Positions 10,260 through 21,204 of a stretch of 64,000 nucleotides of DNA are shown here, one piece after another. The stretch covers positions 62,001-126,000 of the forward strand of contig JAFDXR010000016.1 in assembly GCA_018267825.1 (NCBI GenBank), read 5' to 3'. Every line of letters starts with the position of its first letter. Within the stretch, counting starts at the first letter, position 1. Made by a program: the position numbers and the translations under genes. The notes beneath the pieces are model-generated. The model made no database searches and was not told where the DNA came from. It worked only from the letters and a program-made list of their open reading frames with translations. This DNA is from Bacteroidota bacterium. GTDB taxonomy: Bacteria; Bacteroidota; Bacteroidia; B-17B0; Aurantibacillaceae.

Positions 10260-10847
10260 ATGAGAATCAGAGATGAAAATAAAGAAGCTTCTATCCGCGA
10301 AAAGGCGATGGAGATGATTGTGAACGAAGGCTTTGACGGACTCAGCATGCAGAAACTGGCTAAGGCAGCGGGCGTGTCACCGGCTACGATTTACATTTAT
10401 TACAAAAACCGTGAAGATTTGCTGACTCAATTGTACAATGAGGTTCAGGAAAAATTTGCGGAAGTCGCTCTCAGGCGTTTCAACCCGGAGCTGTCACTGG
10501 AAGAAGGGTTATGGCTTCAGTGGAAAAACCGGATGAAATTTATTCTCGAATACCCGGTCTATTTTCAGTTTTTCGAACAGTTCAGAAATTCCCCGCTTAT
10601 TAATCATAAAGATATTCAGAAGAATGAGTTCCGTGAGAACATGAAGAACTTCGTATTAAATGCGATTAAACGTGGCGAACTGGCTAAAATGGAACCTGAA
10701 ATATTCTGGGCAGTGGCTTATGGTTCTTTTTATACCGTGGTGAAGTTCCATCTCCAGGAGAAAACCATGATGGGCGGACCATTTAAGATGACTGACACAA
10801 AAATGAAGCAAATGCTTCAGATGGTGCTGAAAGCACTGAAACCTTAA
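10260..10847 (+). CDS. TetR/AcrR-family transcriptional repressor
   Basis: A 195-residue regulator. The N-terminal helix-turn-helix (about residues 10-55) has the family pattern AMEMIVNEGFDGLSMQKLAKAAGVSPATIYIYYKNREDLL in outline. The remainder is all-helical, as expected for the ligand-binding and dimer domain. A palindrome within its own promoter points to autorepression. The next gene downstream, 156 nt away on the same strand, is an MFS exporter, so this pair has the usual drug-efflux layout: the effector would be a substrate of the pump. The effector itself cannot be predicted. Confidence 0.92.
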   Translation: MRIRDENKEASIREKAMEMIVNEGFDGLSMQKLAKAAGVSPATIYIYYKNREDLLTQLYNEVQEKFAEVALRRFNPELSLEEGLWLQWKNRMKFILEYPVYFQFFEQFRNSPLINHKDIQKNEFRENMKNFVLNAIKRGELAKMEPEIFWAVAYGSFYTVVKFHLQEKTMMGGPFKMTDTKMKQMLQMVLKALKP

Positions 10848-12465: not shown

Positions 12466-13140
12466 TTAAAATTCGCTGATAAACGACAGCAGGTCTTTGT
12501 TTTCGTTTATCCAAAGTACCAGGCTGTTGTTACGCGGCGGAAGCCCCAGTTTCTGGCAAATACGTGATCTGTAATTTTCAATGGTTTTCTCTGAGAGAAA
12601 CAACAGTTCCGCAATTTCTTTTGATGTGCGGTTCTGGCTAACCAGTTTCAGGGTTTTAAGCTCGGCCTGACTGAGGCTTTTGATAGCTTCATTCAGGCCC
12701 TGTTTCTTTTTATCTTCTTCATTCACCTGATCGTAGTACGGAGCGAGTGAGGTGCCTATATACTTTTCGCCTCGCAGTACCATTTTAATACAATCAATGA
12801 TCTCGTCCACAGCGTTATCTTTCAGAATATAACCAGAGGCTCCGGAGAGTACCGCCTTTTTGATCATTTCCTTCTCGCGATACATGGTCAGGATAATCAC
12901 CTTGGTATTAATACCTTCTTTCAGGATCTGCTTGCACACATCCAGCCCGTTCATTTCAGGCATATTTATATCCAGGATAGTAATGTCGGGGATTTCCTTT
13001 CGCACATTTTCAATCGCTTCTGAACCGTTTGTACATTCGATCAATTTTGCATCTTTAAAATAATCCTGCAAAATATCTTTCAGACCTTTCCGGAATATCG
13101 GATGATCATCAGCAATCAGGAGTTTTGTGAAATCAGTCAT
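12466..13140 (-). CDS. NarL/LuxR-family response regulator
   Basis: A 224-residue regulator. The receiver domain (1-120) has Asp9-Asp11-type acidic residues (ADDHP), phospho-acceptor Asp57 in ILDINMPEMNG, and Lys near 105 (LKDN). The LuxR-type helix-turn-helix at about 155-205 contains LSQAELKTLKLVSQ, SKEIAELLFLSEKTIENYRS. It overlaps the upstream kinase gene by 4 nt (ATGA), so the two are one operon and a cognate pair. NarL-type regulators bind inverted repeats. Such a repeat lies between this operon and the adhesin gene, which makes the adhesin a plausible target; that is inference. Confidence 0.93.
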   Translation of the reverse strand: MTDFTKLLIADDHPIFRKGLKDILQDYFKDAKLIECTNGSEAIENVRKEIPDITILDINMPEMNGLDVCKQILKEGINTKVIILTMYREKEMIKKAVLSGASGYILKDNAVDEIIDCIKMVLRGEKYIGTSLAPYYDQVNEEDKKKQGLNEAIKSLSQAELKTLKLVSQNRTSKEIAELLFLSEKTIENYRSRICQKLGLPPRNNSLVLWINENKDLLSFISEF

Positions 13141-15110
13141 ATGCTGTGTTTAAATTTAACGATCAGTTTTAAACCTTTCTGAACTTTATCATCGAGGTAT
13201 ACGATGCCATTGATGATTTTTGCACGCTCGCGGATCGACAACATGCCCATTCCTTCCGATTTTTCTTTACCGCTGAGGCCATGGCCATTGTCCTGATATA
13301 TCAGATGAAACTCATCCTGCTTATGCAGAATCGAAATTTTCAGAGCTGTAGCACCTGAATGTTTAATGGTATTATTGGTACATTCCTGTATAATCCTGTA
13401 GAGGTGTGTTTTGACATTAACCGGTAATTGTTCAACAACTTCATCAATATCAAAACTGCATTCGATGGTGGTTGCCGATTGTATGCTTTCCACGAGGCGG
13501 GCAACGGATCTGATCAAACCGATTTTTTCGAGGTAAGACGGGTACAGTCGGTGAGACATTTCGCGGGTTTGTTCTATAACCCTGCTCAATTCACTATCCA
13601 GGTCCGGATCAATGTCTTTTCCGGTGAATGATTTGGATACCTTTGATCTGATGATGGAGAGCGACTGACCGATATCATCGTGAAGATCCTGTGAAATACG
13701 GGAGCGTTCTTCTTCCACGTTCTGGATCAACTGACGGCTGAATTGTTCCTGTTTTTCGCGGAGTTTTTTTGAGTAACGCAACCAGGTGATACTGACCAGC
13801 AATACCAGGATAACCGCAGCAATGGTAACGGCCAGCCATTTCAAAAAGCGTTCGGCCTGTGTGCTTTTCTCCAGCTGAATAGATCGTGTTCTTTCTTTTT
13901 CGAGTTCAATTTCTTTCTTCTGGACATTGTAGCGCAACTGGAGTTCCTGTATGATCTTGCCATTGAGTGTTTGATCAATACTATCTCTTACTTTGCGGTG
14001 ATTTAAGTAATCGTCGACGGCAGCTTTGTATTTTTTTTCTGCATAATCTACCCGGTAAAGGATCAGGTAGTAGGCGCTTTTATCTTCCAGGATTCCTGTT
14101 TTCTCAAGCAGTTTTCGGGACTCTTCCAGGTTTTCGCGGGCTTCGCGGGTCCGGTTCATGCGAACCAGGATATCGGCTTTTTCCTGGTAGGCTTTGGTAA
14201 GTTCAAAAGCCATGTTATGCAGTTTGAGCACATTGATGGCAGAATCCAGATAGGCAATGGCCACATCCGGTTTATTTGAACTTAAATAGGCTGTTCCCAG
14301 GTTGATAAACACACTGGAAAGTTCGCGCGGATGGTTGTTTTTTCTGGAATACTCAAGTACTTCATTGAATAGTTCCCTGGCTTTATTCTCACGGTTGCTT
14401 GTAATATAAACCAGGCACATATTGATCTGGATGTGATTCACCAGGCGCTGATCATTTTCTTTTTTGGCAATCTCCAGGCCTTTTTCAAAATCGATGAGGG
14501 CATCTTCATTCTGATTGGTGTATACTTTAATAAGCCCCAGGTTATTTCTGAATACGCCACTATAATGTTTTAAACTGTGCTGATCGGAAAGCGCAAGGCC
14601 ATCCAGGTACAGATGGGCGGCCTCTTTAAACTGATTTTTCTCTTCGTTGATGATTCCCAGGAGGTTGATCAGCTCTGCAGTATTGTCATAATCTTTTGTT
14701 TTCTTCAGTTGTTCATATATAGTCCTGAATTCCTGTTCAGTATCATCGCGGTATCCCTGCTCATAGTCCATGAAAATGAGCCGGATATTTGCCAGGTCTT
14801 CAATATGTTTATTGCCGGTTTTTTTTCCTTCGTTCAGAGAAAGGGTCAGATACTTTTTAGCCTTATCGATATTATGGATGTAATAGAAATAATTGCCGTA
14901 ATATAAATAGACTTCCGCAATGGCATCTTTACGATCTGTTTTTGTAGCAATATCAATGGTTTTTTTTCCAACTGTAAATAGCTGAATCGAATCATAGTAA
15001 GACGCCTCCTTTACGTCGGCCATGAGTCTGTTCAATTCAGGCGAGTATTGTGCCCGGGAAGTAAGGCAGAAGAAAAACAGGAATGCGCTTATGAGGACTG
15101 TTTTTTTCAA
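13137..15110 (-). CDS. TPR-containing sensor histidine kinase (HisKA_3/NarX type), TTG start
   Basis: A 657-residue kinase if started at TTG 15110. The longest frame opens at 15188, but a Bacteroidota -7 box lies inside that extension (15134-15141) and the residues from the TTG give a perfect signal peptide (KKTVLISAFLFFFCLTSRAQ). Order: signal peptide; about six to eight tetratricopeptide repeats in the periplasm (about 30-400); one membrane helix WLAVTIAAVILVLLVSITWL; the H-box EEERSRISQDLHDDIGQSLS with His near 477; and a HATPase with IIQECTNNTIKHS and YQDNGHGL. It is paired with the LuxR-type regulator by a 4-nt overlap. TPR kinases of this kind often respond to envelope or nutrient cues; the signal is unknown. 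Confidence 0.9.
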   Translation of the reverse strand: MKKTVLISAFLFFFCLTSRAQYSPELNRLMADVKEASYYDSIQLFTVGKKTIDIATKTDRKDAIAEVYLYYGNYFYYIHNIDKAKKYLTLSLNEGKKTGNKHIEDLANIRLIFMDYEQGYRDDTEQEFRTIYEQLKKTKDYDNTAELINLLGIINEEKNQFKEAAHLYLDGLALSDQHSLKHYSGVFRNNLGLIKVYTNQNEDALIDFEKGLEIAKKENDQRLVNHIQINMCLVYITSNRENKARELFNEVLEYSRKNNHPRELSSVFINLGTAYLSSNKPDVAIAYLDSAINVLKLHNMAFELTKAYQEKADILVRMNRTREARENLEESRKLLEKTGILEDKSAYYLILYRVDYAEKKYKAAVDDYLNHRKVRDSIDQTLNGKIIQELQLRYNVQKKEIELEKERTRSIQLEKSTQAERFLKWLAVTIAAVILVLLVSITWLRYSKKLREKQEQFSRQLIQNVEEERSRISQDLHDDIGQSLSIIRSKVSKSFTGKDIDPDLDSELSRVIEQTREMSHRLYPSYLEKIGLIRSVARLVESIQSATTIECSFDIDEVVEQLPVNVKTHLYRIIQECTNNTIKHSGATALKISILHKQDEFHLIYQDNGHGLSGKEKSEGMGMLSIRERAKIINGIVYLDDKVQKGLKLIVKFKHSI

Positions 15111-15133
15111 AATATTTCGGGAAGAAGATGTTT

Positions 15134-15141
15134 CAAATATA
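15134..15141 (-). promoter_or_regulatory. -7 box of the TPR-kinase operon
   Basis: On the minus strand this reads TATATTTG, followed 23 nt later by the TTG start at 15110. It lies inside the longer reading frame and argues against a start at 15188. Confidence 0.65.
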
Positions 15142-15209
15142 TTAAAATACTGTTCGACTGCCGTCACGGGTTTCATTTCTATAGTCATTGATGCGTGTCA
15201 TTTACTCAA

Positions 15210-15258
15210 TGAGGGGGCAGCCCTCCTTTAACAGACCTGTTAATTTATAAGATTTGCA
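15210..15258 (+). promoter_or_regulatory. Bipartite regulatory element upstream of the adhesin (copy A)
   Basis: TGAGGGGG-CAGCCCTCCT-TTAA (15210-15231), exactly 20 nt, then ATTTGCA (15252-15258). The first part contains the imperfect inverted repeat AGGGGG-N4-CCCTCCT-like (15212-15227). The second part is a degenerate -7 box, AAGATTTG (15249-15256). The repeat would be centred near -41, the usual site for a class II activator. It also lies in the divergent gap shared with the TPR-kinase operon. A second copy with identical spacing lies at 19486-19534. Confidence 0.65.
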
Positions 15259-15279
15259 AAACCCGCTAAATGTACTTTT

Positions 15280-18200
15280 ATGAAAAAACGTTCTTCTTTC
15301 ATTGTTCTTTTCTTCATTATTTTCTTTTCAGGTCTGCAGCTTCAATCCCAGACATTTTCATGGGCATCGTATCCGGCTGGCGCCACCACTTACACTACGG
15401 GAAATATGAGTGTAAGTATTACCTCCAGTGGGGCTTATTCCCAGAGCGGTTCACCCAAATATGTAGCGGCAGGCAGCAACGCCAATAATCCATCAACAGG
15501 TACGAGTTATTGTACTTCAGCGGGTCTGTTGCTGGCTGTAGACTGGCCCAATACCAGTCAGAATATAACAACTACCATTACATTTGCCACACCTGTATGC
15601 GGGCCGCTGACATTTAGTTTGTATGATATAAATGCTGATTTTTACGACGATGGAACAACCAAGTGGACCTATTTTACAGACAAAATAGATATATCGGCCA
15701 CAGATGCAGCGAGTGCCAGTATTCCTGCTGCTTCCATCAGTTCTTCGGGTTGCTCCAGTACATCGTCGGCGGCGGGTTCAGTTAAAACCATTACAGCCAA
15801 TTACAACAATTGCCAGTGCGGTACAAACAATGTTACCATCAGCGGCTCCACGATAAAGCAGGTGGTTATTAAATATTATTCGGGCCCTGCGACCTATGGT
15901 CCCACACCAACATATCCTTCCTGGCAATACATTGTCATTGGTAATATTACTGCCACAGCTCCGCCTACGGCATCTATTACTCCCGGGGTGCTTGCCTGTG
16001 GCGCTACTTCTACAACGCTTACAGCCGGCACATCGGCATCATCGCCAACCTATTCCTGGTCGGGCCCGGGAGGCTCCACAGTAACATCACCGGCAGCGGC
16101 AAGCACCCCTGTATCGGGGGCAGGTATCTACACGCTTACGATCAATCCGGCGGGATGCAGTGCTACAGCAACCTATACGTTAAATGCAACAGGGACCCCA
16201 CCGGTTGTAACGTCTACAGGCGGTAACACAATAACCTGCAGCACATCATCCGTTCAAACTGTGCTGACGACTACTTCCACTCCCGTAACATATACCTGGA
16301 CCGGTCCTGGAATCGTATCGGGTGCCGGCAGCAATACTATGACTGCCAACGCCGGTGGAACCTATAATTACACTGTAACAAACAGTTCTACCGGATGCCA
16401 GACCAGTTCTTTTGTAACCATTGCCAGCAATACGATCGTACCGGATGTCAGTGCGATCAGTTCAGGATCCATAACATGCTCTGTGAGTAGCGCCACACTA
16501 AGTGGTAACTCAGGGATTCCTTCACCGGTATTTGCATGGACAGGTCCGGGCACGGGAACACCAGCTGGTTCATCACCAAATGCTTCTTCTACGATTGTGT
16601 CTGCTGGTGGAACCTATTCTCTTTCTGTAACAGATCCATCCAATGGCTGCAAGTCGACCGGAACAGTGAGCGTAAACAGCAATACGACTTTGCCAAACAG
16701 CAGTGCCGGCGTAACCCAGAGTTTGAGCTGTACAACGTCTACAGTCAGTTTAAACGGGAGTTCATCTACGCCGGGGGTTAGCTACTCATGGACTGGTCCC
16801 ACAGCCGGGAATCCTGCAGGAACAGCTCCAACCAATTCTGTAACAAGTGTGACTACTGCCGGTGTATACACCCTAACGGTTCTTAATCCGGTTAACGGCT
16901 GCTCCAAAACATCGACGGTATCGGTAGTAACTAATACAAGTACGCCGAATTTGTCTATGGGCTCAAACCAGGTTATTACATGCTCGGCTTCATCGGTTAC
17001 ATTAACCGGCAGTTCATCTACACCATTGGCCGCATATTCCTGGATGGGGCCGAATACCGGCGTACCCGCGGGCTCTGCCCCTACTGGATCGGCAACTAAT
17101 GTAACATCAGCCGGAATATATACTTTAACGGTTACAAATCCAGCAAATGGTTGTTCGGTTTCAAATACATTAAGTGTGAGCAGCAATACAAGCATGCCTC
17201 AGATCAGCATGAATCCCGGACAAATGATCAGTTGTTCCTCTACGACTGTTTCGATCTCCGGCAGCTCATCAACACCCGGTGCGAACTATTCCTGGACAGG
17301 ACCGGTTGTTGGTACTCCCGCCGGCGCTACCCCTAATGCCTCATCAACAGCCGTATCTTCAGCCGGTATATATACATTAACGATTACTTCTCCTGCAAAC
17401 GGGTGCAGCATCACCGGAACCGTTGCTGTAACATCAAACTCCGCCGTACCCCAATTGAGCGTTGCAGGCAGCCAAACGATTACCTGCTCGGCGTCGAGTG
17501 CCACCCTGAGTGGTAGTTCTCCGGTTTCGGGTGCTACATATGCATGGACCGGCCCGGGTGCTGGTGTTCCGGCAGGGTCAAGCCCTGCAGCGGCAACAAC
17601 GATTGTATCTGCCAGTGGAAATTATACATTAACCGTTACAGATCCCGCAACGGGTTGTACCAACCAGGCTGTGATCCCTGTGACAACAGATACGCTGCAG
17701 CCTGTTTTAAACATGGGGACCAACCAGGCAATTACCTGTACTACAACTTCGGCCACACTTACCGCCAACTCCTCTACTCCGGGAGCCGGATTCTCGTGGA
17801 CAGGCCCTGGCAGCGGTATACCTGCAGGCTCAACACCCGGCAGTCCCACAACGGTTGTTGGCGGAAGCGGTGTTTATACACTCACGGTAAATAATCCTGC
17901 TAATGGTTGTGTAAGCAGCAATACGGTTTCCGTTTCGAGTAATACAGCCATCCCGCAGGTGAGTGCAGGCAGCAGCCAGACATTAACCTGTAGTACAACA
18001 ACTGTAAACATCAGCGGGTCGTCATCAACACCAGGTGTCAGTTATTCGTGGACCGGACCTGCAAGTGGTGTGGCCGCCGGTTCATCGCCTACAGCCTCTA
18101 CAACTGCCGTTTCATCGGCAGGTATTTATACGCTTACTGTTTTAACAGTATCAACAGGTTGTCAGAATACAGCCACCGTGGCGGTTTCAACAAGTTCGCA

Positions 18201-19455
18201 GGTGCCGCAGATCACGATCGGAACCAATCAGACTATAACCTGTACAGATCATACGGTTACTTTAAGCGGCAGCTCCTCATCCGCCGGCGTTTCCTATTCA
18301 TGGACCGGTCCGCTTGCCGGCAATACTGCAGGTTCTACACCTACAGCTACTACAACACAGGTAACACAGGCAGGGATTTATACACTTACTGTTACCGATC
18401 CTGTTACAGGTTGTTCGGCCTCACAATCATTGTCTGTTATCACAGATAGCATCAAACCGGTTATTACTGTAAATGCATCCGGCTCTGCGACTTTATCGTG
18501 TGCCAATAGCAGTGTAACTTTCACGGCCAGTGCTCCCGGCAATAATACCCTGAACTGGACAGGACCCGGTGGGGCACTGAGCGGAAACCCCGTATCGGTT
18601 CAAACGTCAGGTGTTTATACGGTTCAGGCCACAAACCCTTCTAATGGCTGTACTGCGAGCTCCACGGTTGCTGTCAGTGGAAATGTTTTATTGCCATCGC
18701 TTAGTGTTTTACCGGGTGTTGATTCAATCAGTTGTATGAATCCAACGGTGAGTATTCAGGCAACATCGAATGCTTCAGTACCTGCATATACCTGGTCGGG
18801 TCCCGGTGGTTATACATCCAGCCAGCCAACGGCTTCGGGCATATTCAGTCCGGGAGTATACACGGTTGTGGTTACAGACAGTGTATCGGGTTGTTCAGCT
18901 ACATCCACAGTTGCAATTACGCAAGGCAGCAATCCGCAGGCAGGATTTAATGCGAATCCGGCTACAGGTACAGCGCCGCTGCCGGTGCAGTTTACAAATA
19001 CAAGCAGTAACGGCTTTACCGGGTTCAGCTGGTCTTTTGGCGATTCCAATACGAGTTCAGCCACAAACCCTGCCAATACCTATACTCTGGCAGGAACCTA
19101 TACGGTAACGCTGGTTGGTATTGCGGCCAATCCAAATTGCAATGACACGATCAGCTCTGTTATTATTGTTACAGATGAGGAGGGCATTGAGATACCAAAT
19201 GTATTCACTCCTAATGGAGACGGAGCCAATGACGTATTTACTATAAAAACAAACGGCTACAAAGACCTGGAGCTGGTTATCTATAACCGCTGGGGACAGG
19301 TGCTGATAGAACTGAGCGGACTAAACCTTGGTTGGGATGGTGTAAATGCCAATGGGAAACATGCTCCTGACGGTACTTATTTCTATATGCTTACCGGCAC
19401 TTCGCTAAGCGGAAAAAGTATCGAGAGAACCGGGTTCCTGACACTCTTCAGGTAA
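15280..19455 (+). CDS. Giant secreted repeat adhesin with gliding-motility/type IX secretion C-terminal domain
   Basis: A 1391-residue extracellular protein. Signal peptide about 1-24 (ends LQLQSQ). An N-terminal domain of about 25-228 carries several Cys and a CQCG motif. Then about twelve tandem Ig-like repeats (231-1220), most exactly 84 residues, each with the pattern TCS...STPG-YSWTGP...PAGS...AGIYTLTV..P.NGC and thus one probable disulfide. Next comes a PKD domain (about 1221-1300, FSWSFGD), then the CHU C-terminal domain (about 1304-1391: PNVFTPNGDGAND, YNRWGQ, DGTYFYML, TGFLTLFR), which sends proteins through the type IX system with type B sorting. The likely role is surface adhesion or matrix. 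No clear terminator follows directly. Confidence 0.92.
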   Translation: MKKRSSFIVLFFIIFFSGLQLQSQTFSWASYPAGATTYTTGNMSVSITSSGAYSQSGSPKYVAAGSNANNPSTGTSYCTSAGLLLAVDWPNTSQNITTTITFATPVCGPLTFSLYDINADFYDDGTTKWTYFTDKIDISATDAASASIPAASISSSGCSSTSSAAGSVKTITANYNNCQCGTNNVTISGSTIKQVVIKYYSGPATYGPTPTYPSWQYIVIGNITATAPPTASITPGVLACGATSTTLTAGTSASSPTYSWSGPGGSTVTSPAAASTPVSGAGIYTLTINPAGCSATATYTLNATGTPPVVTSTGGNTITCSTSSVQTVLTTTSTPVTYTWTGPGIVSGAGSNTMTANAGGTYNYTVTNSSTGCQTSSFVTIASNTIVPDVSAISSGSITCSVSSATLSGNSGIPSPVFAWTGPGTGTPAGSSPNASSTIVSAGGTYSLSVTDPSNGCKSTGTVSVNSNTTLPNSSAGVTQSLSCTTSTVSLNGSSSTPGVSYSWTGPTAGNPAGTAPTNSVTSVTTAGVYTLTVLNPVNGCSKTSTVSVVTNTSTPNLSMGSNQVITCSASSVTLTGSSSTPLAAYSWMGPNTGVPAGSAPTGSATNVTSAGIYTLTVTNPANGCSVSNTLSVSSNTSMPQISMNPGQMISCSSTTVSISGSSSTPGANYSWTGPVVGTPAGATPNASSTAVSSAGIYTLTITSPANGCSITGTVAVTSNSAVPQLSVAGSQTITCSASSATLSGSSPVSGATYAWTGPGAGVPAGSSPAAATTIVSASGNYTLTVTDPATGCTNQAVIPVTTDTLQPVLNMGTNQAITCTTTSATLTANSSTPGAGFSWTGPGSGIPAGSTPGSPTTVVGGSGVYTLTVNNPANGCVSSNTVSVSSNTAIPQVSAGSSQTLTCSTTTVNISGSSSTPGVSYSWTGPASGVAAGSSPTASTTAVSSAGIYTLTVLTVSTGCQNTATVAVSTSSQVPQITIGTNQTITCTDHTVTLSGSSSSAGVSYSWTGPLAGNTAGSTPTATTTQVTQAGIYTLTVTDPVTGCSASQSLSVITDSIKPVITVNASGSATLSCANSSVTFTASAPGNNTLNWTGPGGALSGNPVSVQTSGVYTVQATNPSNGCTASSTVAVSGNVLLPSLSVLPGVDSISCMNPTVSIQATSNASVPAYTWSGPGGYTSSQPTASGIFSPGVYTVVVTDSVSGCSATSTVAITQGSNPQAGFNANPATGTAPLPVQFTNTSSNGFTGFSWSFGDSNTSSATNPANTYTLAGTYTVTLVGIAANPNCNDTISSVIIVTDEEGIEIPNVFTPNGDGANDVFTIKTNGYKDLELVIYNRWGQVLIELSGLNLGWDGVNANGKHAPDGTYFYMLTGTSLSGKSIERTGFLTLFR
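15970..18940 (+). repeat. Tandem Ig-like repeat tract within the adhesin
   Basis: About twelve units, mostly 252 nt (84 codons), similar in protein but diverged in DNA. Each holds TCS near its start, YSWTGP in the middle and NGC near its end. The first and the last two units are shorter and most diverged. Confidence 0.85.
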
Positions 19456-19485
19456 ATCGTTTCAGGCGTCATCTTTTTTTATTAT

Positions 19486-19534
19486 TGAGGGGGTAGCACT
19501 CCTGTAAATGGGGTTTCGGATTCTCAAATTTGCA
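19486..19534 (+). promoter_or_regulatory. Bipartite regulatory element (copy B) before a mini-gene
   Basis: TGAGGGGG-TAGCACTCCT-GTAA (19486-19507), exactly 20 nt, then ATTTGCA (19528-19534). This matches copy A at 15210-15258 in both blocks and in spacing, while the 20-nt spacers differ. The -7 position reads CAAATTTG, again a degenerate box. Confidence 0.6.
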
Positions 19535-19552: not shown

Positions 19553-19591
19553 ATGAAAACTATCCAGGCTGGTATCATGATCATTATCTAA
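19553..19591 (+). CDS. Twelve-codon mini-ORF after the repeated promoter motif
   Basis: ATG at 19553 opens MKTIQAGIMIII and stops at 19589-19591. It begins 18 nt after the ATTTGCA block and is followed 6 nt later by a terminator, so a transcript of about 80 nt is implied. It may be a leader peptide, a small RNA, or the scar of a deleted gene whose signal peptide began here. I cannot decide between these. Confidence 0.35.
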   Translation: MKTIQAGIMIII

Positions 19592-19597
19592 TGAAGG

Positions 19598-19622
19598 ACC
19601 CGTTTTTTACAAACGGGTTTTC
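19598..19622 (+). terminator. Terminator of the mini-gene, perhaps also of the adhesin
   Basis: ACCCGTTT (19598-19605) pairs perfectly with AAACGGGT (19611-19618) around a 5-nt loop, followed by TTT. It is the first clear terminator after the adhesin stop at 19455. Confidence 0.75.
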
Positions 19623-19732: not shown

Positions 19733-19762
19733 TTTGTGCTTCCAAATTATGCAGTATTTTTG
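19733..19762 (+). promoter_or_regulatory. Promoter of the LytS-type kinase, leaderless arrangement
   Basis: TTTG (19733-19736), an 18-nt spacer and TATTTTTG (19755-19762). The ATG of the kinase at 19767 is only 4 nt beyond, so the mRNA would have almost no leader. Confidence 0.7.
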
Positions 19763-19766
19763 CGCC

Positions 19767-20525
19767 ATGAGCACCACAACGCTATGCCTGTTATTTGTTC
19801 TTGTGTTTTTTATCGGATTGGCGTGCGGGGCTTTATACCAGGCTTTTTTCAAAAAGAACACGCTTCAGCAGCAGAATGCGCGTTTGAAAAAAGAGCTGGA
19901 AGACATTTCCGGCAAAATTCAGGATATAGAACTTACCCAGTCGAAATTTATTCTGAATCCCCATCTGTTTAAAAACACCCTTAACTCCATTCAGAGCTAT
20001 GCTTTCAGAACACATCAGTCGCTTGAGCGATTGGGGGGCGTGCTGGACTACATATTATATGACAGCAATACAGAGTTGGTTTCGGTTCAGGAGGAGCTTG
20101 AGTTTGCACGAAACTTCATTGATCTGAATAAAATCAAACTGAATCCTCTGTTTGACATCCGGGTGAAAGTGAAAATTGATGAGCATCATCCTCTGTATTC
20201 CCAACCTTTACTCACCCCGCTGATTACAGCCTATTTTATTGAGAACGCATTTAAACATGCAGATCTGCAGAGCCCCGATGCTTTTATTTCGATCGTATTT
20301 GAGTTAAAAGACGATCACTTTTACTATACTGTTTCCAACAAAATCCTGAAACATCCTATTTTCAAGGAAAAAGGAGGGATTGGCAAAAAGAATATTGAGA
20401 AACGGCTTGATATCACATATAAAGACAGCTATAAGATAGATTATTTTACCGAAGGTCATGTTTATACAGCGTATCTAAAAATTAATCTCATTGAGTTCAA
20501 AAGTAAGATGCTTGATATTGGATGA
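19767..20525 (+). CDS. LytS-like sensor histidine kinase (His_kinase family), short form
   Basis: A 252-residue kinase starting at ATG 19767; the earlier in-frame ATG at 19734 lies upstream of the -7 box and would not be transcribed. One N-terminal membrane helix (about 6-26), a short coiled coil (30-58), then the His_kinase domain with phospho-acceptor His66 in ILNPHLFKNTLNSIQ, and a HATPase with YFIENAFKHA and GIGKKNIEKRLD. No large sensory domain is present, so it may sense through the membrane helix or a partner. The response regulator gene begins inside its 3' end (35-nt overlap), so they form a pair. Confidence 0.9.
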   Translation: MSTTTLCLLFVLVFFIGLACGALYQAFFKKNTLQQQNARLKKELEDISGKIQDIELTQSKFILNPHLFKNTLNSIQSYAFRTHQSLERLGGVLDYILYDSNTELVSVQEELEFARNFIDLNKIKLNPLFDIRVKVKIDEHHPLYSQPLLTPLITAYFIENAFKHADLQSPDAFISIVFELKDDHFYYTVSNKILKHPIFKEKGGIGKKNIEKRLDITYKDSYKIDYFTEGHVYTAYLKINLIEFKSKMLDIG

Positions 20526-21204
20526 TGAACTGCCAGGGTTGACTTACCTGCGCATGCTCTGCGAACAGATACCGTTTGCAGAAGTAGTGCGTTGTTTTGA
20601 CTCACCGGAAACGTTTCTGAAGCAGCATGAACAACTCGACTATGATGTTTGTTTGCTGGATATACATATGCCCGGGCTGAATGGTATGGAAGTAGCCCAG
20701 CTGCTGCAATCCAGGCCTGTTATTTTTGTGTCGGCGCATCCCGAATATGCTATTGAGGCATTTAACCTGGATGCTATAGATTTTATAAAAAAACCGGTGT
20801 CGCGCGACCGCCTGGAAAAGGCACTCTCCAAAGTCATGAACCGGCTGAATGATCTCCCGGGGAAAAGTTATTTTATCTGGAATACCAACCTGGGCAAATC
20901 AACTCTTTATTTCAATGAGATTACCTATATCACTACCGGTGAGATTGATAAGCGCGACAAGCTGGTGTATATGGCCGATCAGGGTACACTGTTACTCAAA
21001 AATATTACCATCGACAGGCTTCTTGAATTTTTACCGGCCCGTGATTTTATAAGGGTCAATAAGTCCGATATTATAAACCGAAAAGCTATCCAGGCATACA
21101 CGTTCGATGAAATTGTACTGAAGCTCAAAACGGCCAGGCAATTGCCCATGACCATTACACTCGGTGATATTTACCGAAGGGCTTTCCAGGATTGGATCCT
21201 TTGA
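20491..21204 (+). CDS. LytTR-family response regulator
   Basis: A 237-residue regulator. The receiver domain has ILDDE (acidic pocket), phospho-acceptor Asp57 in LLDIHMPGLNG, and Lys in FIKKPVSRD. The LytTR DNA-binding domain (about 130-235) has YFNEITYITTGEIDKRDKL and FIRVNKSDIINRKAI. The only in-frame start before the receiver is TTG at 20491, which overlaps the kinase by 35 nt; no ATG fits. LytTR proteins bind pairs of short direct repeats. The pair sits downstream of the adhesin and upstream of the antiporter. Its targets are not known. Confidence 0.9.
   Translation: MSSKVRCLILDDELPGLTYLRMLCEQIPFAEVVRCFDSPETFLKQHEQLDYDVCLLDIHMPGLNGMEVAQLLQSRPVIFVSAHPEYAIEAFNLDAIDFIKKPVSRDRLEKALSKVMNRLNDLPGKSYFIWNTNLGKSTLYFNEITYITTGEIDKRDKLVYMADQGTLLLKNITIDRLLEFLPARDFIRVNKSDIINRKAIQAYTFDEIVLKLKTARQLPMTITLGDIYRRAFQDWIL

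Follow-up and report, generated by a model that had tools for sequence, protein, structure and literature searches.

The window analysed here, a 64,000-nucleotide stretch of the genome of a member of the Bacteroidota, contains a two-component system that lies upstream of, and divergent from, the gene of a large secreted adhesin. The two genes of the system overlap by 4 nt on the minus strand; one (12466-13140) encodes a NarL/FixJ-type response regulator, likely an activator, with a receiver domain (Pfam Response_reg, 1.7e-27) and a LuxR/GerE helix-turn-helix domain (GerE, 4.3e-12), both above cutoff, and the other (13137-15188) a TPR-containing sensor histidine kinase (Pfam TPR, HisKA_3 and HATPase_c). 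The adhesin (15280-19455, plus strand) has 1391 aa, Ig/PKD domains and a type B sorting domain of the type IX secretion system (T9SS), which is matched by Pfam CHU_C (3.2e-21; 75.7 bits versus a cutoff of 27) and by TIGR04131 (57.4 bits versus a cutoff of 35), so that the protein belongs to the T9SS type B cargo. Its gene sits between two plus-strand copies of a short element (15210-15258 and 19486-19534), the first with its palindrome 24 nt from the kinase start codon and the second with its palindrome 33 nt past the adhesin stop codon. Behind the second copy follow a micro-ORF of 12 codons (MKTIQAGIMIII and a stop codon, 19553-19591, plus strand) and a terminator-like hairpin (19598-19622, plus strand). 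A second two-component pair, consisting of a His_kinase protein (PF06580) and a LytTR regulator (19734-21204), is located directly behind this micro-gene on the same strand.

The two-block pattern that the original prediction had described occurs at both places without a single mismatch, with an exactly fixed distance between the blocks, while the half-sites and the length of the spacer had to be corrected. The half-sites read AGGGGG and C(A/C)CTCC with a loop of 3 nt, and the right half-site is separated from the -7 box by exactly 22 nt. In copy 1, the putative activator palindrome AGGGGG-CAG-CCCTCC (15212-15226) is thus followed by the box AAGATTTG (15249-15256), and in copy 2, AGGGGG-TAG-CACTCC (19488-19502) is followed by CAAATTTG (19525-19532). 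Identity between the two copies is only 45% in the spacers and 30% and 47% in the 60-nt flanks, so that nothing but the contacts is common to both. The same divergence speaks against a recent duplication of the promoter block, and duplication, which had been offered as the other possible origin of the pair, is not supported. Dinucleotide-shuffled windows contained no two-block match, even when 3 mismatches were allowed, and the full-form element is present in the 4.8-Mb genome in the two window copies only. A loose pattern (TGAGGG-N34-38-ATTTG) yielded 9 matches in the complete genome versus 15 in the reversed control, and among these nine the entire element is found in the window pair alone; five palindrome-like blocks with 2-3 mismatches that were inspected elsewhere in the genome lacked a correctly placed -7 box.

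The same element was found at 6 of 11 loci of regulator orthologs in the family to which the window belongs (up to 20 kb around each ortholog), and it was the alignment of these six loci that redefined the half-sites, the loop and the spacing: an imperfect palindrome AGGGGG-N3/4-C(C/A)C(T/C)C(T/C), 22 nt, and a TAnnTTTG -7 box. The clearest statistical result is the distance between the two parts. When boxes resembling TAnnTTTG in at least 5 of 6 positions were counted at all distances from 0 to 59, 48 of 100 palindrome orientations had one at 22 nt and no more than 5 had one at any other spacing, the ceiling being about one half because the symmetric palindrome is counted both ways. The element and its spacing are established by sequence comparison, and the suspected constraint on spacing is supported, 22 nt being the sole enriched distance. 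A matrix built from 67 non-redundant sites carries information only in the half-sites, which have A/T-rich edges, and in the -7 box; it contains no -33 element, and the sequence of the 22-nt spacer is close to random.

In Flavobacterium psychrophilum, the TAnnTTTG box occupies positions -12 to -5 (PMC9723704). On this basis, transcription in the window would start at 15261 and 19537, with the palindrome centred at -42 for loops of 3 nt or at -41.5 for loops of 4 nt. Class II activator sites lie near -41.5 and overlap or replace the -33/-35 element, and the predicted geometry, with its dominant distance of 22 nt and its lack of information at -33, agrees with this and with the position near -41 that had been anticipated; thus the palindrome fits a class II activator site, and activation would follow from its position. 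Compared with the flavobacterial sigma-A promoters (PMC9723704), the -7 box is alike, but a palindrome at a fixed distance replaces the -33 region. The absence of the first T of the -7 box, which had been read as a sign of activator dependence, is real in both copies but carries little weight as an argument, since this T is present at most sites of the family (58 of 67), its loss being particular to the copies of the window genome and a few other sites.

At most sites, the downstream genes encode large secreted proteins, several of them with type IX sorting domains, and the start codon is found 54 to about 150 nt, mostly 62-87 nt, from the start of the site. Domain searches with six of these targets revealed CHU_C in four, one of which also has SprB repeats, the CHU_C-associated Ig_7 domain in one, and weak Ig/PKD-like matches in the last. 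The length of the adhesin ORF that is predicted to be driven by the element varies among five Fluviicola-type loci, with 39, 18 or 25 codons in some genomes and 1043 and 1098 in others. One further locus (L105) has three copies of the element (at 10747, 18435 and 18666), which accompany a secreted protein of 1501 aa, a 12-codon ORF (MKRIIIDPVILP) and a secreted protein of 541 aa.

Copy 2 is predicted to be the promoter of a separate tiny gene behind the adhesin, which would account for its position there, a point that the original prediction had left without an explanation. The predicted transcript of about 86 nt ends at the hairpin ACCCGTTT-TTTAC-AAACGGGT, followed by TTTC, which was missed by a default terminator scan, presumably owing to its short T-run. 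In G005 and G020, two genomes from another genus, an element divergent from the kinase gene leads not to an adhesin but to the related micro-ORFs MNQPIIQKGIIINI and MNTGIHKGIIIHI, respectively, each with a strong terminator behind it. The ending shared by the three peptides, G-[IV]-[IMLV]-[IV]-x-[IVL], was found in four distinct ORFs among 13,510 ORFs of 9-20 codons (1.49 Mb), and three of the four are those of the window, G005 and G020, all behind the element. A DNA pattern of the micro-ORF that did not include the palindrome matched 3 places in 87 whole genomes, each behind the element, and only the window in 395 sampled genomes of the class; since this pattern was built after all three sequences had been seen, it measures rarity and is not an independent prediction. 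The three sequences, from three genomes and two genera, were aligned by hand at the protein level for a codon comparison. The window differs from either relative at 9 of 13 third codon positions, compared with 4-5 of 26 other positions (p = 0.003-0.004), as expected for a translated micropeptide; between the two relatives, the same test was not significant. The ORF is thus kept while its third positions change, which is a coding pattern, and the micro-ORF seems to encode a conserved, isoleucine-rich peptide of 12 residues, the main rival being a structured or pairing RNA.

The alternative that the short transcript of copy 2 is a non-coding regulatory RNA, the micro-ORF being incidental, is less likely but quite possible; both a surface protein and a small RNA would then answer to the regulator, much as RsmY/Z are controlled by GacA. 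The evidence for it comes from another family of Bacteroidia. In several genomes of that family, the element next to the regulator gene is followed by a predicted terminated transcript without an ORF, which carries TTTAACTTASTACTAC and hairpins of unrelated sequence. As a short transcript without a shared ORF exists there, the activity may reside in the RNA as such. A pattern of this RNA that did not include the palindrome had 7 matches in 6 of 229 genomes, with 1 control match; six of the seven coincide with the coordinates of known element sites, and the seventh has the same sequence as the transcript at locus L122, which follows the palindrome, so that all lie behind it. These short RNAs have no match in Rfam. 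Nor did Rfam 15 yield a match above the gathering score in the window region and nine related loci; a weak match to the PK-BYV viral pseudoknot model in the window region was discarded because it is on the opposite strand and below the gathering score. On the other hand, the transcript of the window has no sequence in common with the RNA of the other family, and within the family of the window the ORF is kept while its third codon positions change, as in coding sequence. No convincing target for base pairing emerged. Base pairing of the short transcript with the 54 gene starts of the window ranked the adhesin only 51st, the kinase 21st and the regulator 39th. The best duplex involved the start of the LytTR regulator gene that lies behind the short transcript, and 1 of 500 shuffles was as good; as the best of 54, it is not significant.

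Several further observations concern the short transcripts. At six loci (L160, L163, L164, L165, L180 and L122), one of which (L164) has two tandem copies, the RNA reads UUAAC(A)CUAC...UUUAACUUASUACUAC, followed by a hairpin and a T-run, and it mostly adjoins the regulator gene behind the same palindrome. Some adhesin mRNAs of the family with these RNAs have similar ACUACUA stretches around the start codon (e.g., TTTAACATTACTACTATGAAAGTTAACATACTACTATCC at L168), and the mRNAs and the small RNA could possibly be bound by the same factor; CTA is a leucine codon that is used in signal peptides, and therefore ACTACTA near adhesin starts may also be a coincidence. At two other loci (L152, position 6908, and L174), the element is followed by a different short transcript, with a conserved CATAGTTAACAGTGATTTTCATAGCACGGTG and then a TTAAGGG/CCCTTAA hairpin.

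It is improbable that copy 2 is a relic, left over from a second adhesin gene that was lost or from a stray duplication, with a meaningless ORF behind it. Some sites elsewhere do precede truncated adhesin starts, for example, at locus L100, where a signal peptide stops after 33 residues. However, copy 2 retains both blocks and the exact spacing though its spacer and flanks are unrelated to those of copy 1, the micro-ORF recurs in another genus, with three of the four ORFs that have its ending behind the element, and another family, too, has short terminated transcripts behind the element.

With copy 2 read as the promoter of a tiny gene of its own, its nearest known counterparts are small RNAs that are transcribed from the 3'-UTR by their own promoter. 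Like these, copy 2 lies just behind the stop codon of the adhesin gene and its transcript ends at the probable adhesin terminator; it differs from them in sharing the predicted activator site with the parent gene and in having a conserved micro-ORF.

Beyond the window genome, the search of whole genomes and related genomes that the original prediction had suggested revealed few copies per genome, placed before gene starts. In the family of the window, 12 distinct sites (14 listed) were found in 11 of 87 genomes, with 1 control match; the order-level set consists of the same 87 genomes, as the order holds only this family. The other family had 22 sites in 20 of 120 genomes and none in the reversed control, and the sampled class added seven genomes with matches, compared with two control matches; the class matches L075 and L077 look like chance. 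The element also stands beside regulator orthologs in distant Bacteroidia. When the regulator alignment was scanned against genome contigs, 80 loci were obtained, and scoring of sites over these loci on both strands gave 80 raw matches, at roughly 47 loci, versus 13 on the reversed sequence.

The linkage to the regulator is likewise a result of sequence comparison, and it favours the adjacent NarL-type protein, singled out at the outset as a candidate binder, because this protein is linked to the element and co-occurs with it in other genomes. In the family of the window, the regulator is present in 10 of 11 genomes with sites and in 13 of 76 others (Fisher p = 2.7e-6, a value that overstates independence because the genomes are related), and a stronger argument is that, in several genera, site and regulator are linked on one contig. 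The association has exceptions on both sides: some genomes with the regulator have no recognisable site near it (e.g., G007 and G014), and one draft genome with a site (G089) has no regulator ortholog. There is a slim chance that a different regulator, e.g., another NarL-type paralog, binds the palindrome, given that linkage alone is no proof of binding and that the window genome has 51 places matching the regulator at E values up to 0.001, and about 50 related regulators. Against this, unbiased genome-wide searches for sites land next to this ortholog in most genomes with sites, presence of the two is correlated, and the DNA-binding helix is almost invariant among the orthologs, which are 59-72% identical within the family of the window. 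At one locus (L086), the site precedes the kinase gene itself, which suggests autoregulation of the kinase there. It is very unlikely that the inverted repeat represents a dispersed repeat or acts as an RNA hairpin instead of a protein-binding site, as it occurs in few copies per genome before gene starts and at a fixed 22 nt from the -7 box, and, lying upstream of the predicted transcription start, it would be absent from the RNA of copy 1.

The element probably marks the promoters of a small, dedicated regulon. In the mechanism proposed, the TPR histidine kinase would phosphorylate the NarL-type regulator, and a dimer of the latter would bind AGGGGG-N3-CMCYCC, a site whose centre lies some 42 nt before the start and which takes the place of a -33 element; these steps are inferred from the protein families and the geometry. 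The bound regulator would touch RNA polymerase positioned on the TAnnTTTG box at the fixed distance of 22 nt, activation being indicated by the position of the site. Copy 1 would then turn on the adhesin exported by the T9SS, and copy 2, in the 3' region of the adhesin gene, an independent, hairpin-ended transcript of about 86 nt from which a 12-residue peptide would be translated. We would guess that the small product tunes the same output, by feedback on, or fine tuning of, surface display.

A limited search of open-access titles and abstracts found no description of the site or of the micro-gene. The results provide a precise, searchable putative activator site for an apparently unstudied clade of Bacteroidota regulators that is tied to type IX-exported adhesins, and they point to a putative conserved peptide, some 12 residues long, and to a distinct family of small RNAs, both of which are overlooked by ordinary annotation. 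It is a speculative and rather doubtful extension that a widespread two-component system of the Bacteroidota pairs adhesins with a co-activated tiny product that feeds back on their expression or display, this product being a peptide in certain lineages and, in others, a small RNA with UUAAC...ACUAC motifs. In the lineage with the RNA, the ACUACUA motifs near the starts of some adhesin mRNAs mean that the RNA could serve as a decoy for a factor that binds them.

Among the known systems, FimS/FimR of Porphyromonas gingivalis, which activates the mfa1 fimbriae as well as the first fimA-cluster gene (PMC1974823), is alike in being a two-component system of the Bacteroidota whose regulator binds the promoter of a surface adhesin, binding being a prediction in the present case. 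The kinase is weakly similar to FimS according to NCBIfam (1.3e-10), with 40.2 bits far below the cutoff of 600 of the FimS model. No matching site is given for FimR (PMC1974823), and the predicted targets in the present system are T9SS adhesins and a micro-gene. The two systems would work in a similar way but need not be the same.

The regulator also falls below the UvrY/SirA/GacA model, with 127 bits versus a cutoff of 280. The gammaproteobacterial GacS/GacA-RsmY/RsmZ system (BarA/UvrY-CsrB) likewise has a NarL-type regulator whose regulon is very small, with a palindrome upstream of the targets and short terminated transcripts among them, and GacA with RsmY and RsmZ comes nearest in its logic to the system described here. 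Should the pairing of adhesins with a tiny product be true, it would represent a Gac/Rsm-like logic in bacteria without a known Gac/Rsm system. The system described here differs from the gammaproteobacterial one in that the short RNA is unlike any Rfam family and the adhesin genes are themselves the predicted direct targets.
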